From NCBI GenBank assembly GCA_025358925.1, contig JANYHT010000002.1, positions 62,001 to 126,000 of the forward strand: a stretch of 64,000 nucleotides of DNA, in the 5' to 3' direction. A program made the translations under genes and the position numbers. Positions 48,835-55,033 of the stretch are shown piece after piece. The notes under the pieces are model-generated. The model saw only the letters and a program-made list of their open reading frames with translations, was not told where the DNA came from and made no database searches. Source of the DNA: Gemmatimonadaceae bacterium (GTDB taxonomy: Bacteria > Gemmatimonadota > Gemmatimonadetes > Gemmatimonadales > Gemmatimonadaceae). Each line of letters starts with the position of its first letter. The stretch's first letter is position 1.

Positions 48835-48872
48835 CTAAATGTCGCAACCGAACGAGACAAAGACACCCTTCG

Positions 48873-49277
48873 TTGCGAGACGTTGTGATGAGCGTGCTGC
48901 CGTTGTACGTCGTGGTCTTTGCAGGTGGCGTGCTCACCATACTAAGCCCGTGCATCCTGCCGGTGCTACCGTTCGTCTTCACGCGCGCGGCGCGACCGTT
49001 TTTGCGCGAAACACGACCGATGCTCGCGGAAAAAAATTATTGCGTCACAACCACCGTCGCGACCGCCGGTCTCGACGCCAGACGAAGCTATGTGAAGGCG
49101 CTACATGCGATTAAAAGGTCTAGTCGTGATAGGTGTTGGCCCGCTGCGTACATCGTCGACAAGCAGAGGCAGTTGGTCAACGGACGGGCCGAGGCATCGG
49201 GCACGCACGAAGAACTGTTATCACAACGCGGTCGATGTGCGGAGCTGTTCGAATTGCAAGCGGCGCGCTATCGGTGA
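48873..49277 (+). pseudogene. Fused remnants of a CcdA-like gene and an ABC exporter gene
   Basis: The 134-codon frame begins as a cytochrome c biogenesis/DsbD-type membrane protein: LYVVVFAGGVLTILSPCILPVLP, then TRAARPFLRETRPMLA. Homology stops near 49020, after one helix of about six. A non-matching middle follows, and the end GTHEELLSQRGRCAELFELQAARYR is the classical C-terminus of an ABC exporter ATPase. Neither half could function. A deletion joining two neighbouring genes is the simplest explanation. Located between pgm and a redox cluster. Confidence 0.7.
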
Positions 49278-49291
49278 GTACGCACGACTAG

Positions 49292-50428
49292 TTACCAGCC
49301 GATGTAACGTGCCACAAATCGCCGATCAATAGCGCGCTTCAATTGTAGCGCCCAGCGCGAATCACTCAGCATACCGCGCCAGCGCAACAGGGCCCGTCCG
49401 TCGGCCGTGTCGAGAATGAACATCGTGTGACGTTGCGGCGTAAAGGCGCGGACTCGACCCAGCGTGTTGCCGGTCACGCAGCGTAGGTTATGGGCGAGCA
49501 CGGCGCCACCACGAACCGCGTATACGCCGGATCGAGTTACCCACGGCGAAGCCACGTGTGAGACGCAATCGCCAGCGCCCCACAAGGCGTCACCGTTTAC
49601 GGCTCGAAGCGTCGCATCAACCGCTAAAAATCCCTCGGCGTCCGTCGCGCACTGTGAAGCCAGAAAAAGTGGAGGTGCCGCAGCGCCCGTGAGCCACAAC
49701 GTAAGCTCACTGGCGATACTGCGTCCGTCCGATAGCTGCACGTCGCGCGCCGTTACACGCGTCCCGGTCGCACTCGTTTCGACGCGCACCCCTCGAGCTG
49801 CGAAGCGGGCGACAATGCGACTCGACATGCGCGTGCTGAATTCGGGCAAGAGTCGCGGCGATGCGCTGAGCATGGTCAGCGACAACGTGCGATTGAGCGT
49901 GTGTGCGCGAGCCAGCAGTGCTAAAGCGAGTTCGCAACCCGCCGCTCCACCGCCCACGACGCAGCACGACAACGGCGCGCCCTCGGAACGCGACGTAAGT
50001 AGGTCGGTCACTCGTTCCAACAACGCATGCCAAGCGCCAAGCGGGCGCGTCGCATACGCGTAGTCGTGAACACCTGGCAGCTCTTGCCCCGTAGACACCG
50101 CACCAATGTCCACCGAACACCAATTGCCGTCGATTGATGCATTGTCTGCGAGTACGTGCGCATCGATGTTCGTCACCGCAATGCGATGGACGGTCCCTTC
50201 GACAAATTGCGCACCAGCGGCACGGCACAGGGCCGCAAGGTCAATGCTCAGCGCACGCTCGGTGACCGCACCACGCAACTGCGCTGGCATCATCCCCGAA
50301 TACAGCTGCTGCGCATCGGGCGACACGAGTACAAGCTCACCGTCAAACCGACGTTGCGCCGCAGACCGCAAGACCTCAATGTGCGCGTGTCCGCCGCCAA
50401 TCAGAATCAGTCGGCGGGTCGCGCTCAC
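49292..50428 (-). CDS. NDH-2/SelD-N-terminal-like FAD-dependent oxidoreductase
   Basis: 378 aa from GTG 50428. Opens with the dinucleotide-binding LILIGGGHAHIEVLR (~6), an FAD-binding signature shared by type II NADH dehydrogenases and the flavoprotein half of some SelD proteins. A second Rossmann motif CCVVGGGAAGCELAL (~155) binds NAD(P)H; GDALWGAGDC (~300) contacts FAD. A quinone or thiol may be the acceptor, not decidable. Third gene of the minus-strand arm, 19 bases after the mercuric-reductase-like gene. Confidence 0.82.
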   Translation of the reverse strand: MSATRRLILIGGGHAHIEVLRSAAQRRFDGELVLVSPDAQQLYSGMMPAQLRGAVTERALSIDLAALCRAAGAQFVEGTVHRIAVTNIDAHVLADNASIDGNWCSVDIGAVSTGQELPGVHDYAYATRPLGAWHALLERVTDLLTSRSEGAPLSCCVVGGGAAGCELALALLARAHTLNRTLSLTMLSASPRLLPEFSTRMSSRIVARFAARGVRVETSATGTRVTARDVQLSDGRSIASELTLWLTGAAAPPLFLASQCATDAEGFLAVDATLRAVNGDALWGAGDCVSHVASPWVTRSGVYAVRGGAVLAHNLRCVTGNTLGRVRAFTPQRHTMFILDTADGRALLRWRGMLSDSRWALQLKRAIDRRFVARYIGW

Positions 50429-50447
50429 AAGGCGATCGCGTTGAAAT

Positions 50448-51986
50448 TCAACCAAGCCATCGAAAATATCTGGCGAACAGTGACTTGACCATTGGGGTGA
50501 GCTTGCGTCGTCGCCAAGCGTCCGCGCTCCTGCGCAACATTTCGCCTTGCGTCGGATAGGGATGCATGGTGCGACCAATTGCGCTGAGACCAAGTTTGGC
50601 CGTCATCGCCAACACCACTTCGCCAATATTTTCACCCGCATGTTCGGCCACGATGGTCGCGCCGAGAATGCGATCAGTTCCTTTCGCGATCACGATGCGA
50701 CAAAATCCCTCAGTCTCATCGTCCAGTCGTGCGCGATCAACGTCATGCAAGGGCACCGTCACGATATCCGTCGGCACACCACCCGTGCGTGCATCGTCTT
50801 CCAACATTCCCACGCTGGCCACTTCGGGACTGGTGAACGTGACTCGCGGCGTCACCAGCGCGCTGGCTTTGCCGCGTCCAAAGAACAGCGCGTTCTGCAC
50901 AACGAGCCGCGCCTGAAAATCCGCCGCATGCGTGAACTGCAGCGGTGAGCACACATCACCAACGGCGTAAATACGGCGATTCGACGAACGCAATCGATCA
51001 TTTACGTGCACGCCGCGCGTTGCATCGAACGTTACGTGCGCCGCGTCCAGTCCAAGGCCATGCACGTTTGGGGTACGGCCAACTGCCAGCAACAGCGCAT
51101 CCGTCGTGAGCGTCTCCGCAACATCGCCATATCGCACATCGAGGTGAACAAGCAATCCGCCATTCGTGACTCGCTCAATCTGCACATCGTGCAATACTCG
51201 AACGCCATCGCGCGCGAGCGCGTGCTCAACCACTCCCGCTGCATCAAACGACTCGCGCGGCAGGAGTTGCGCACCACGATTCAGTAGCGTTACACGAGTG
51301 CCCAGTCGCACGAACGCCTGCGCCAGCTCGCAGCCGATTGGCCCGCCGCCAACAACGACGAGATGCGTCGGTCGTTGGGTGAGCGAGAAAATAGTCTCGT
51401 TGGTGAAAAACGGGAGGTCGGTGAGGCCGACAATCGACGGCACCGTGGCCCGCGCACCAGTCGCGATCACACCACGACGAAACACGAGTCGGTGCTCGCC
51501 CACGAGCACCGCATCGTCCGCAACAAAAAGACCATCACCAAGAAACACATCAACACCAAGGTCGCGAAAACGAGCGGCGCTATCAACGGGCGAAAGATCT
51601 GCGCGCAATTTGCGCATGCGTTCCATTGCAGCGGAAAAATCGCCGTCGCCGTGCGCCTGCGGTCCGCCAAAACGTGCCGCCGCCGTACGTGTCTCGTGCC
51701 ATGAGCGCGCCGCTCGAATCACAGCCTTCGACGGCACGCACCCCACATTGAGACAATCACCACCCATGAGATGGCGCTCCACGAGCGCGACGCGGGCGCC
51801 GAGTCCGGCAGCAGCAGCAGCGGTCACAAGTCCGCCCGTACCGGCGCCGATCACCACCAGATGGTAGCGCGCGGCGGGCGCGGGATTGACCCACGACGGA
51901 GGCTGGACTTGCTCGCGCAAGCGTTGATCATGCGCGCTGTCTGTGAGCAGTGTGGGAACGGTTCCAACACGAGTCAGCACGTTCAT
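50448..51986 (-). CDS. Mercuric reductase-like pyridine nucleotide-disulfide oxidoreductase
   Basis: 512 aa. A ~40-residue extension precedes the FAD motif VVIGAGTGGLVTAAAAAG (~45). The redox disulfide is C78-LNVG-C83, NAD(P)H site VVVGGGPIGCELAQAF (~220) and the C-terminal dimer partner site reads HPYPTQGE instead of HxHPTxxE. No HMA domain or C-terminal vicinal Cys pair, so mercury reduction is unlikely. Similar proteins are found fused to TVP38 domains, and here the ATG overlaps the TVP38 gene stop (ATGA). Confidence 0.87.
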   Translation of the reverse strand: MNVLTRVGTVPTLLTDSAHDQRLREQVQPPSWVNPAPAARYHLVVIGAGTGGLVTAAAAAGLGARVALVERHLMGGDCLNVGCVPSKAVIRAARSWHETRTAAARFGGPQAHGDGDFSAAMERMRKLRADLSPVDSAARFRDLGVDVFLGDGLFVADDAVLVGEHRLVFRRGVIATGARATVPSIVGLTDLPFFTNETIFSLTQRPTHLVVVGGGPIGCELAQAFVRLGTRVTLLNRGAQLLPRESFDAAGVVEHALARDGVRVLHDVQIERVTNGGLLVHLDVRYGDVAETLTTDALLLAVGRTPNVHGLGLDAAHVTFDATRGVHVNDRLRSSNRRIYAVGDVCSPLQFTHAADFQARLVVQNALFFGRGKASALVTPRVTFTSPEVASVGMLEDDARTGGVPTDIVTVPLHDVDRARLDDETEGFCRIVIAKGTDRILGATIVAEHAGENIGEVVLAMTAKLGLSAIGRTMHPYPTQGEMLRRSADAWRRRKLTPMVKSLFARYFRWLG

Positions 51987-52705
51987 TGTGCTTGCTCCGA
52001 TTCAGCGAGCGCGCGACGAGCGACCCGCGTAACGAGGGTGGTTACAGCGATGGTGGCGAGTAGACCGAGCACGAGCACCGCATAGTAGCCCGCATCGCGG
52101 ACTGGTGCGCCGCCACCCGCCACCGCCGCGACATCACCCGCAAGCTTGCCGTAATACACATACAACACGGTGCCGGGCAACATGCCAACGGATGCGATGA
52201 CGTAGTCGACCAATCGCACTCGCGACAATCCCAGCGCGTAATTGAGCAGCGAAAACGGAAAGATTGGCGAGAGCCGCAGCAAAAACACAATTTTACGCCC
52301 GTTGTGCGCGATGGCCTGATCCAACGCGCGAAAGCGCGCGTTCCCGGCCAAGCGTCGCTCGACAAACCCGCGCGCGACATACCGCGAGACAAGGAACGCG
52401 GCCGTCGCGCCAAGCGTTGCTCCGATTAACACGTAGGCCACGCCCAAACTGAGTCCGAAGATGGCGCCGGCTGCCAACGTGAGCAGAGAACCAGGAACGC
52501 CTACGACCGCCGCGACCACATAACCGCCGATGAAGACAATTGGGCCGAGCGCCCCCAACTCATGGACCCAGTTGGCAAATATGGGAACGTATCGTGCCCC
52601 AAACCGACCGAAGAGTACGAGTGCGAAAAGCGCGAGTGCCGCGATGGCAAGCATGCGCATTCGGCGCGGCGTGCTCGTCGGCGTTGACGTGATGAGTGGC
52701 GGCAT
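51983..52705 (-). CDS. TVP38/TMEM64 (DedA-like) membrane protein
   Basis: 240 aa with five to six membrane helices. VTT-domain signatures: PGSLLTLAAGAIFGLSLGVAYVLIGATLGATAAFLVSRY (~70-110) and FLLRLSPIFPFSLLNYALGLSRV (~140), in which Arg and Pro residues lie in the re-entrant helices. Members are probable lipid scramblases or proton-dependent carriers. It heads the minus-strand arm of the redox cluster and shares a ~115-base control region with the divergent DUF547 gene. Confidence 0.88.
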   Translation of the reverse strand: MPPLITSTPTSTPRRMRMLAIAALALFALVLFGRFGARYVPIFANWVHELGALGPIVFIGGYVVAAVVGVPGSLLTLAAGAIFGLSLGVAYVLIGATLGATAAFLVSRYVARGFVERRLAGNARFRALDQAIAHNGRKIVFLLRLSPIFPFSLLNYALGLSRVRLVDYVIASVGMLPGTVLYVYYGKLAGDVAAVAGGGAPVRDAGYYAVLVLGLLATIAVTTLVTRVARRALAESEQAQ

Positions 52706-52820
52706 GGCGGTAAATCAGGAGGTGGAAACTTCGGCTTCTAAGTGGCGTTGGCGCCGCGTCCCTGCAGAAATCTGTATGCAAACGAGTGGCGTAGTATCCG
52801 TAACTCTTACCAATTAGACC

Positions 52821-53663
52821 ATGCCTCTCGGTTTCCGGCTTTTCGCGCACAGGGTGCGCATTCTTGGCCTTGCGGCTTGCAACGCGGGTGTCATGGCCGT
52901 GTCCCTGCCCGCGTTGACAACGCTTTCTGCGCAATCACGTCCCATGGACCATTCCGCATTTGACGCGCTTCTGCACGCCAACGTGAGCCGCGGTATGGTG
53001 GACTATGACGCCTTCGCGAAGGCGCCAGAGTTTAAGGCGTATCTCGCCCAATTGTCCGCGACCGATCCGGCGACGCTGGCACGCGCTGACCAGTTGGCGT
53101 TTTGGATCAACGCGTATAACGCGTACACGATTCAGCTGATTAACGCGCATGGTGAGCGCGAATCGATTCGCAATATCAACAAAAGTTATGGTGTCGTCAA
53201 AGCGTATGGACCGTGGAAAGAAAAGCTGGCGATAGTTGGCGGGAAAGCCTACGGACTTGACGACATTGAACAGGATATCATTCGGAAACGCTATCTAGAG
53301 CCGCGCATTCATTTCGCGCTGGTGTGCGCCGCGATGGGTTGTCCGCCGTTGCGCAGCGAAGCGTATGTCGGCCAAAAAATCGATGCGCAGCTCGATGAAC
53401 AGGCGCAGATATTCTTGCTGAAGTCACCCACGAAAAATCGTGTTGACGTCGCGTCAAAAACGTTGTATGTCAGTCCAATCTTTGTTGAGTTTCGCGACTA
53501 CATCAAAGATTTTGGTGGCTCAAACGCGACGGTCGGCAAGTTTATCGCAACATTTTATCCGGCTGGTCCAGTGCGCGACCTGCTCAACAGCGGCGCGTTC
53601 ACAGTATCCAAGACAAACTACGACTGGTCGTTGAACAGCAAGGCGCACGCGGAGAAGAAATAG
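52821..53663 (+). CDS. Secreted DUF547 protein
   Basis: 280 aa with a signal peptide (cleavage near TLSAQ, ~38). The DUF547 domain is complete: AFWINAYNAYTIQLI (~93), WKEKLAIVGGKAYGLDDIE (~134), EPRIHFALVCAAMGCPPLRSEAY (~162) and FVEFRDYIKDFGG. The conserved His, Cys (AMGCPP) and Asn residues suggest an enzyme related to cysteine-protease/transglutaminase-like folds, but no activity is established. Its TAG overlaps the radical SAM start (TAGTG). Confidence 0.87.
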   Translation: MPLGFRLFAHRVRILGLAACNAGVMAVSLPALTTLSAQSRPMDHSAFDALLHANVSRGMVDYDAFAKAPEFKAYLAQLSATDPATLARADQLAFWINAYNAYTIQLINAHGERESIRNINKSYGVVKAYGPWKEKLAIVGGKAYGLDDIEQDIIRKRYLEPRIHFALVCAAMGCPPLRSEAYVGQKIDAQLDEQAQIFLLKSPTKNRVDVASKTLYVSPIFVEFRDYIKDFGGSNATVGKFIATFYPAGPVRDLLNSGAFTVSKTNYDWSLNSKAHAEKK

Positions 53664-55033
53664 TGGCTGGCGCAATGGCTCGCGTCCCGCAACTGTACCG
53701 TATCGCGCGCAAACCGGTTGGCGATGAAGCGCGGCGGCTGCTTAACGCGAATTGGGACGCACTCGCCCCGTCGATGCGGGTGCCGCAACAGATGTTCGGC
53801 AAGCAGGGCAACGGCTGTGGCGCCACCATCGGTGCAATGCCGCGTTGCGACTTTGCATGCCGCGGCTGCTACCTCAACGCGGACGCCAATAAAATTCCGG
53901 CCGAGTCGGTGAGCGCGATCAAGGCGCAGATGCGTGCGTTGCGACCGGTGTTGGGCAACGCAGGCAACTTACAACTGACCGACGGCGAGGTCACGCTCCG
54001 TCCGGTTGAAGAGATCATTGAATTGCTGCGGTACGCGCAGTCACTCGGCCTCATTCCGATGTTGATGACACATGGCGATTCGTTTCGTCGTCGTCCGGGA
54101 CTGCTTGAACAGTTAATGGTGAAAGGCGGACTCATTGAAGTCAGCATTCACGTGGACACAACGCAGCGAGGTCGCGTTGGTGAACAATGGCGCCGTGCCA
54201 AGACCGAGGCGGATCTGAATCCATTGCGCGAGGAGTTTGCGCGCCTGATTCGCGACGCGCAGCGCAGCACGGGCCTGCCGCTGCGCGCAGCGACGACGAT
54301 GACCGTCACGCGCGACAATTTACACGGCGTGGCTGACGTGGTGCGCTGGCTCACACATAACACCGACGCATTTCGACTGATCAGTTTCCAACCCATCGCG
54401 CAGGTCGGTCGCACTGAAGAAGGATATGGCGGTGGCGTTGATGTTGAGGCCTTGTGGGACCACGTTGCGGATGGCCTGAACGTGGCGGGTGGTGCGACGC
54501 GTATGGCAGAGATGGGTGTCTGGTTTGGGCACCAGTCATGCAATCGCATGGTGAATGGCGTGGTGATGCATGCCGTCAATCGCGAGCCGGTCTTTCATGC
54601 GGTCCGTGATTCGGCGTCCTCGACCGACGTGCGTGTGGTCGACGGCTTCCTGCAACGTTTCGGCGGCATATCGTTTCGCTTGGACTCCGCGAGCGAGCGC
54701 GTCGCGCGCAGCGTCGGTATTGTCGTCGCCTCCCCTGCATTCATTTTCCGAAGCGTGCTCGCCTTTGCTCGGCAGTGGACGCAGCGGGCGGGGGCCGGGT
54801 CATCATGGCGTGGTGCGTGGCGCCTGTTGCGCGGCAAGGCGCGTATGACCCCACTCGTATTAGTGAGTCATCACTTCATGAACCGCGATCAATTATCGTC
54901 GCCTGAGGGACAAGAACGACTATCGCATTGCGTCTTCAAGGTGCCAATCAACGACCAGATGTTGTCGATGTGCGAAGTCAACGCACTTGGCGTTCGCGAA
55001 CAGTACTACACAGAGCTCGCGAACGCCGGTTGA
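53663..55033 (+). CDS. Radical SAM enzyme
   Basis: 456 aa, GTG start preceded by GGAG. The cluster motif C62-x3-C66-x2-C69 in RCDFACRGCYLN is canonical; LTDGEVTLRP (~110) provides the GGE-like SAM site, and further strands (LMTHGDSFRR, VSIHVDTTQRG) complete the barrel. Additional Cys in QSCNRMV (~294), SHCVFKVP (~427) and SMCEVN (~438) could bind an auxiliary cluster. The C-terminal ~60 residues are strongly ordered but unfamiliar. Translationally coupled to DUF547, so they probably act on a common pathway. Confidence 0.88.
   Translation: MAGAMARVPQLYRIARKPVGDEARRLLNANWDALAPSMRVPQQMFGKQGNGCGATIGAMPRCDFACRGCYLNADANKIPAESVSAIKAQMRALRPVLGNAGNLQLTDGEVTLRPVEEIIELLRYAQSLGLIPMLMTHGDSFRRRPGLLEQLMVKGGLIEVSIHVDTTQRGRVGEQWRRAKTEADLNPLREEFARLIRDAQRSTGLPLRAATTMTVTRDNLHGVADVVRWLTHNTDAFRLISFQPIAQVGRTEEGYGGGVDVEALWDHVADGLNVAGGATRMAEMGVWFGHQSCNRMVNGVVMHAVNREPVFHAVRDSASSTDVRVVDGFLQRFGGISFRLDSASERVARSVGIVVASPAFIFRSVLAFARQWTQRAGAGSSWRGAWRLLRGKARMTPLVLVSHHFMNRDQLSSPEGQERLSHCVFKVPINDQMLSMCEVNALGVREQYYTELANAG

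Follow-up and report, generated by a model that had tools for sequence, protein, structure and literature searches.

A divergent TVP38–flavoprotein/DUF547–radical SAM gene cluster of Gemmatimonadaceae: a conserved unit with a Tes-like enzyme and a possible organoarsenical or lipid substrate

The tetraether lipid synthase Tes (GDGT-MAS) is the closest described relative of the enzyme at the center of this study and possesses a rubredoxin site, an N-terminal cluster site and two conserved residues, the labile ligand Met439 and Tyr459 (PMC9433317). Membrane proteins of the COG0398/TVP38 type are commonly fused to reductases of the sort described below, which are their commonest fusion partners; the family is tied to aerobic metabolism, and some TVP38/DedA members are flippases or scramblases (PMC10127716). 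In arsenosugar synthesis, ArsS adenosylates arsenic (PMC12159101). Here, we analyzed a five-gene cluster from a soil-type Gemmatimonadaceae bacterium, located at positions 49,292 to 55,033 of a 64,000-nucleotide stretch of contig JANYHT010000002.1 (the window); the source genome, G000, is a Gemmatimonadota assembly of 4.0 Mb that is 96% complete. The cluster is a real unit whose core, a DUF547 protein and a radical S-adenosylmethionine (SAM) enzyme that appears to be built on the plan of Tes, recurs across phyla, in several cases among arsenosugar-type genes. Its features are the following:

49292..50428, minus strand: NDH-2/N-terminal-to-SelD type pyridine nucleotide-disulfide oxidoreductase, 378 amino acids (aa), GTG start; TIGR03169, 267.5 bits
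50448..51986, minus strand: MerA/dihydrolipoamide-dehydrogenase-like FAD disulfide reductase, 512 aa; NF004991, 701.7 bits
51983..52705, minus strand: TVP38/DedA-type (COG0398-like) VTT membrane protein, 240 aa; PF09335, 94.5 bits
52706..52820: divergent intergenic region, 115 bases
52821..53663, plus strand: exported DUF547 protein, 280 aa; PF04784, 96.9 bits
53663..55033, plus strand: Tes-like radical SAM enzyme, 456 aa; PF04055

All five reading frames are open at these coordinates, three running leftward and two rightward, and their domains can be assigned firmly. The divergent layout around a single 115-base region, with TVP38 and the MerA-like reductase overlapping in ATGA and DUF547 and the radical SAM gene sharing one base within TAGTG, is as the sequence-only reading, an earlier inspection of the letters of the window, had described it. 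This arrangement goes far beyond chance: A scan of genome contigs yielded 26 relatives of the radical SAM enzyme, which span Gemmatimonadota, Planctomycetota, Alpha- and Gammaproteobacteria, one deltaproteobacterium, Verrucomicrobia and Myxococcota, and 21 of these loci have a DUF547 gene no more than 1 kb away (6.4 kb in one further locus; not seen in three; the sequence of one locus ends early on one flank). The same proximity holds for five of six loci of group B, by which we denote distant relatives with 27–28% identity, while group A comprises enzymes of the window's own kind. TVP38 and the MerA-like reductase accompany the radical SAM gene at up to 3 kb in 8/26 loci (in L012 as a short match only) and at 7–9 kb in one; L027, L029, L035 and L107 additionally contain a MauE/DoxX membrane protein. 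In L015, L017, L018 and L029, TVP38 and the reductase are apparently fused into single open reading frames of 709–747 aa; the fusion that the sequence-only reading had attributed to other bacteria is both published (PMC10127716) and present in these loci. Within Gemmatimonadota the radical SAM gene is rare and patchy (9/298 genomes), and all nine carriers have a close DUF547 gene (Fisher p = 3e-10, uncorrected for kinship). The NDH-2/SelD-type gene occurs in 23 of 298 genomes, namely in 5/9 radical SAM carriers versus 18/289 others (p = 2e-4, likewise uncorrected for kinship), and is part of the cluster in no more than three cases: the window, the closely related L010 and genome G244. The expected co-occurrence in other genomes thus holds for four of the five genes: DUF547 and the radical SAM enzyme are the core, TVP38 and the MerA-like reductase are a frequent and often fused partner, and the NDH-2/SelD-type protein is a loose member.

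As the sequence-only reading had noticed, the radical SAM enzyme has extra cysteines. It contains exactly seven, those of the CX3CX2C motif (C62/C66/C69) and four others, C52, C293, C423 and C437, all of which are invariant in 20 aligned sequences of 27–92% identity; His403 is likewise invariant in the relatives (alignments A1/A3). No curated family accepts the enzyme, the best scores being those of Tes (NF045702, 53.9 versus 450 bits) and TrsS (NF045646, 45.5 versus 490 bits). A PDB search with a profile of the 20 relatives retrieved Tes at E 1e-24 and hardly any other match. The AlphaFold model (predicted local distance difference test, pLDDT, 91.3; predicted template modeling score, pTM, 0.90) matches 7tol at Z 29.1, with 343 residues from the range 40–456 placed on 7tol 55–488, while the next family reaches Z 16; Foldseek aligns it to 7tom at E 1e-16. 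As in Tes, a radical SAM core is followed by a C-terminal auxiliary-cluster domain in which C423 and C437 align with Tes cysteines; upstream of CX3CX2C there is a single cysteine, C52, and the N-terminus is modeled as two helices. We infer that C293, C423, C437 and perhaps H403 are ligands of a C-terminal auxiliary cluster. Two other assignments were rejected: ArsS, as there is no TIGR04167 match at E 0.01, and a SPASM peptide maturase, as PF04055 is the sole domain and neither SPASM nor a peptide-recognition domain is found.

Among the partner proteins, TVP38 passes PF09335 (VTT, DedA/TVP38; 94.5 bits versus a Pfam gathering cut-off of 33.9) and has five to six hydrophobic stretches. The reductase passes NCBIfam NF004991 (FAD-containing oxidoreductase) with 701.7 bits versus 620 and comprises FAD, NAD(P) and dimer domains with a redox CX4C (C78/C83). 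It had been described as mercuric-reductase-like but devoid of mercury-binding parts, and this is what we find: Membership of MerA (TIGR02053) failed with 380 bits versus 454, the final cysteine is C429 of 512 residues, and classical mercury detoxification was rejected given the missing HMA domain, the missing C-terminal cysteine pair and the score below the MerA cut-off. The NDH-2/SelD-type protein stays below TIGR03169 (N-terminal-to-SelD oxidoreductase; 267.5 bits over its full length, cut-off 310). Judged from the sequence, its start is more likely GTG 50428, 19 nt after the reductase, than TTG 50593, because the homologue in L101 (L101:2192-3334) begins at about the same residue.

The DUF547 protein passes PF04784 far above the gathering cut-off of 27 and has an N-terminal hydrophobic stretch at residues 14–32, in line with the export proposed earlier. 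Its predicted model (pLDDT 86.5) has no fold match in the PDB at a useful score. A conserved motif, EPRxHFALxCaaxGCP (H164, C169, C174), is accompanied by Y227/D230 (alignments A2/A4), and the chemistry of the protein probably involves C169, C174 and H164. G000 contains a second DUF547 gene (G000:C50:118646-119428; L091:6599-7441) in which both conserved cysteines are lost, with FALVFAALGSPP replacing FALVCAAxGCPP; this copy may be without catalytic activity or have taken on another role. Single-protein fusions of TVP38 and DUF547 of ~500–590 aa occur, moreover, in members of the window's genus and in other Gemmatimonadota (L086, L089, L090, L092, L096, L098), an architecture that likely puts DUF547 on the outer face of the membrane, and DUF547-DUF1223 fusions directly follow two group B radical SAM genes (L114:10637-12385, L115:7592-9286).

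The group B radical SAM relatives lie on plasmids amid arsenosugar-type genes. Two of the families found there, TIGR04282 and TIGR04283, are the arsenosugar glycosyltransferases. On a Cupriavidus sp. KK10 plasmid (L109) the order is ArsM, CMD-family protein, ArsS, MerA-like reductase, TVP38, TIGR04283, TIGR04282, methylthioadenosine phosphorylase, radical SAM enzyme and DUF547; in B. glumae (L108) a radical SAM-DUF547 pair is located 2 kb from ArsS; and in Roseomonas (L107) a TIGR04282-DUF547-radical SAM run lies near a second set, VTT-FAD-DUF547-MauE. Group A shows the association as well. In G244, a sister species from the window's family whose radical SAM enzyme is 71% identical, a full ArsM (355 bits versus 263) lies within the same gene run, flanked by the NDH-2-type gene and the reductase. 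In the alphaproteobacterial loci L025 and L030, TIGR04282/TIGR04283 matches are 1.5–6 kb from the radical SAM gene (TIGR04283, 205 and 192 bits versus 182; TIGR04282, 148 bits versus 134 in L025 and an unscored homologue in L030); in L024, a homologue of TIGR04283 is 1.6 kb away. Conversely, the Gemmatimonadota ArsS clusters L067, L075 and L076 contain TVP38, MerA-like or DUF547 genes.

We therefore read the cluster, with a probability of about 0.4, as a conserved membrane-linked radical/redox tailoring module whose likeliest substrate is an organoarsenical of the arsenosugar or arsenolipid type or a lipid-linked metabolite close to these; since the relatives sit among arsenic-sugar genes, the gene set probably produces or processes an unusual compound, either an organic arsenical or a lipid. 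The sequence-only reading had proposed that a lipid, a quinone or an exported peptide undergoes a membrane-linked redox modification. The lipid part fits the Tes fold, whereas nothing supports peptide or quinone; what had been missed is that such genes are repeatedly associated with those of the arsenosugar type, and this association renders an organoarsenical substrate at least equally likely. A mechanism can be sketched from the families, the fold and the gene order: The radical SAM enzyme would use its N-terminal [4Fe-4S] cluster to cleave SAM and would then take hydrogen from an unactivated carbon of the substrate, which would be lipid-like or linked to a lipid; as in Tes, the C-terminal auxiliary cluster (C293, C423, C437, perhaps His403) would be a sink for the radical or the site of coupling. 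At the membrane, the disulfide reductase would provide the dithiol reductant that As(III)-thiol or sulfur chemistry requires, TVP38 would move or expose the lipid-like substrate across the bilayer, and DUF547 would act on the outer side. A more specific version, in which a pared-down bacterial Tes branch makes arsenolipids by forming a carbon-arsenic or a carbon-carbon bond on an organoarsenical attached to a lipid, with TVP38-reductase as flippase/reductant unit and an exported DUF547 enzyme, strikes us as decidedly unlikely.

Several observations weigh against an organoarsenical substrate. ArsM, ArsS, TIGR04282 and TIGR04283 are all absent over cut-off from G000 (assembly 96% complete). With the feeder enzymes ArsM and ArsS absent from the assembly, a role of arsenic is the weakest step of this reading for the window's species. 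The radical SAM enzyme and ArsS never overlap among 200 Gemmatimonadota, ArsS was not found in three group B genomes, and the nearest relative, G298, has its ArsM away from the cluster in an apparently ordinary ArsR-ArsM-aquaporin operon. ArsM is common in the window's family anyway; among the genomes carrying the radical SAM gene that were tested through their loci, ArsM is present in 12/19 and ArsS in 5/19. Since TVP38-MerA and DUF547 genes are far commoner than radical SAM or arsenosugar genes, the arsenic link may moreover be partly generic. Finally, in several group A loci the neighbors suggest lipid metabolism instead: acyltransferases, CDP-alcohol phosphatidyltransferase and phytoene/squalene synthase.

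In an explanation without arsenic, the radical SAM enzyme would be a bacterial relative of Tes that couples, crosslinks or otherwise modifies the alkyl or isoprenoid chains found in membrane lipids; TVP38 would be the lipid scramblase, and DUF547 and the reductases would serve the membrane side. No other known structure comes nearly as close as Tes, which is also the sole convincing PDB sequence match, flippases and scramblases are known in the TVP38/DedA family (PMC10127716), genes for acyltransferases, CDP-alcohol phosphatidyltransferases and phytoene/squalene synthases are located within 7 kb in several loci, and no arsenic-sugar gene of G000 exceeds its cut-off. Yet the identity to Tes and the family score (54 of 450 bits) are low, Met439, Tyr459 and the rubredoxin and N-terminal cluster domains of Tes are missing, and the repeated adjacency of ArsM, ArsS, TIGR04282 and TIGR04283 is left unexplained. 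We regard such a purely lipid-directed role as possible but doubtful. Unlikely, in our view, is that TVP38, reductase and DUF547 form a generic membrane thiol-redox or detoxification module that treats metalloid- or oxidant-stressed thiols, with the radical SAM enzyme as one of several unrelated users and arsenic as one setting. TVP38 and DUF547 are indeed widespread (144/298 and 98/298 Gemmatimonadota genomes, versus 9/298 for the radical SAM gene), the TVP38-DUF547 and DUF547-DUF1223 fusions exist without or beside the radical SAM gene, and the frequent reductase fusions of COG0398 proteins and their tie to aerobic metabolism (PMC10127716) would suit such a role. However, the DUF547-radical SAM pair is retained across phyla even without TVP38 and reductase, and the radical SAM enzyme is for this reason not an incidental passenger. 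Modification of a peptide or protein, be it by a maturase resembling those of ribosomally synthesized and post-translationally modified peptides or by a cofactor maturase, is highly improbable: The enzyme weakly resembles SkfB and SuiB in sequence and fold, as does any radical SAM enzyme, the C-terminal domain is of the Tes and not the SPASM type, no SPASM or RRE domain was found, and no small neighbor of the radical SAM gene recurs in the 26 loci (genes of at least 90 aa; shorter precursors were outside the scan).

The surroundings of the cluster and its relatives provided further observations. A ~75-base block ahead of DUF547 within the intergenic region is strongly conserved and nearly unchanged in L010; a promoter scan of the 115 bases gave no significant match and no more matches than in shuffles, and no RNA elements or tRNAs were found in the window. 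Between a phosphoglucomutase gene and the cluster, positions 48839-49277 (plus strand) hold apparent gene debris with no intact gene, in which an N-terminal CcdA/DsbD-like stretch runs into the apparent C-terminal end of an ABC transporter. A family scan of 68 neighbors of group A loci found as recurrent only two-component systems, acyltransferases, MauE/DoxX, phytoene synthases and CDP-alcohol transferases. In the Gemmatimonadales loci L013, L019 and L021, the DUF547-radical SAM pair is preceded by phytoene/squalene-type synthase, acyltransferase or DUF2269 genes; a rhodanese gene follows the radical SAM gene in L013 and L021 only, and a nucleoside hydrolase gene separates it from DUF547 in L022 only. 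The alphaproteobacterial loci L024-L026, L030 and L031 have in common YCII and cupin genes, placed towards the glycosyltransferases, and, on the opposite flank, a large PAS histidine kinase, which in L024-L026 and L030 adjoins a LuxR-type regulator. The Roseomonas cluster continues (L107:9242-13268) with a second small radical SAM gene, a phosphonate-type ABC importer and a metallophosphoesterase, a homologue of which (28%) comes after ArsM in L120. In several genomes bearing the radical SAM gene, ArsM is read through one in-frame TGA (G155:C6:145304-146128; G217:C50:17537-18409; G306-G308, the genomes of L024-L026), which suggests selenocysteine-containing arsenite methyltransferases.

Each gene's family was already known, as was the TVP38-reductase fusion. 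A literature search found no paper joining DUF547 with radical SAM enzymes and none on Gemmatimonadota Tes homologues, and the papers and family libraries searched contained neither the whole unit nor the pared-down Tes-type enzyme with a histidine at the ligand position nor the tie to arsenosugar genes. DUF547, the TVP38-reductase fusions and the bacterial Tes-type radical SAM enzymes, which have no settled role, travel together across phyla and repeatedly among arsenosugar genes, and each thereby gains a testable context. The cluster thus offers candidate genes for tailoring steps in bacterial organoarsenical or arsenolipid synthesis.

In comparison with known systems, the window's genome holds none of the four arsenosugar markers over cut-off, whereas a cluster of that type on L109 encloses homologues of TVP38, the MerA-like reductase, DUF547 and the radical SAM enzyme, and parts of the module stand beside arsenosugar-type genes in L025, L030, L101, L107 and L108. 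With mercuric reductase MerA and dihydrolipoamide dehydrogenase, the reductase shares the FAD, NAD(P) and dimer domains and the redox CX4C; it differs from MerA by lacking the HMA domain and the C-terminal vicinal cysteines, by belonging to NF004991 and by having relatives that are often fused to TVP38. To the TrsS radical SAM (seleno)protein model NF045646, the group B relatives align over most of its length with 100–106 bits, still below 490, while the match of the window's enzyme is confined to the core. With Tes (7TOL, 7TOM), finally, the enzyme shares the CX3CX2C core and a C-terminal domain with HxFM...C...C..N at 17–19% identity, below the NF045702 cut-off; the rubredoxin site (C9, C12, C33, H36) and the N-terminal [4Fe-4S] site (C73, C77, C80) of Tes were not found in it. 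In the profile alignment, the labile ligand Met439 lies opposite the invariant His403 and no tyrosine lies opposite Tyr459, a placement for which a numbering offset of 20 was inferred from both residues. By alignment and model, the enzyme thus appears to follow the Tes plan without being a Tes, pared down by two N-terminal metal domains, and with a histidine at the auxiliary-cluster position it should help to tell which parts of Tes radical coupling needs.

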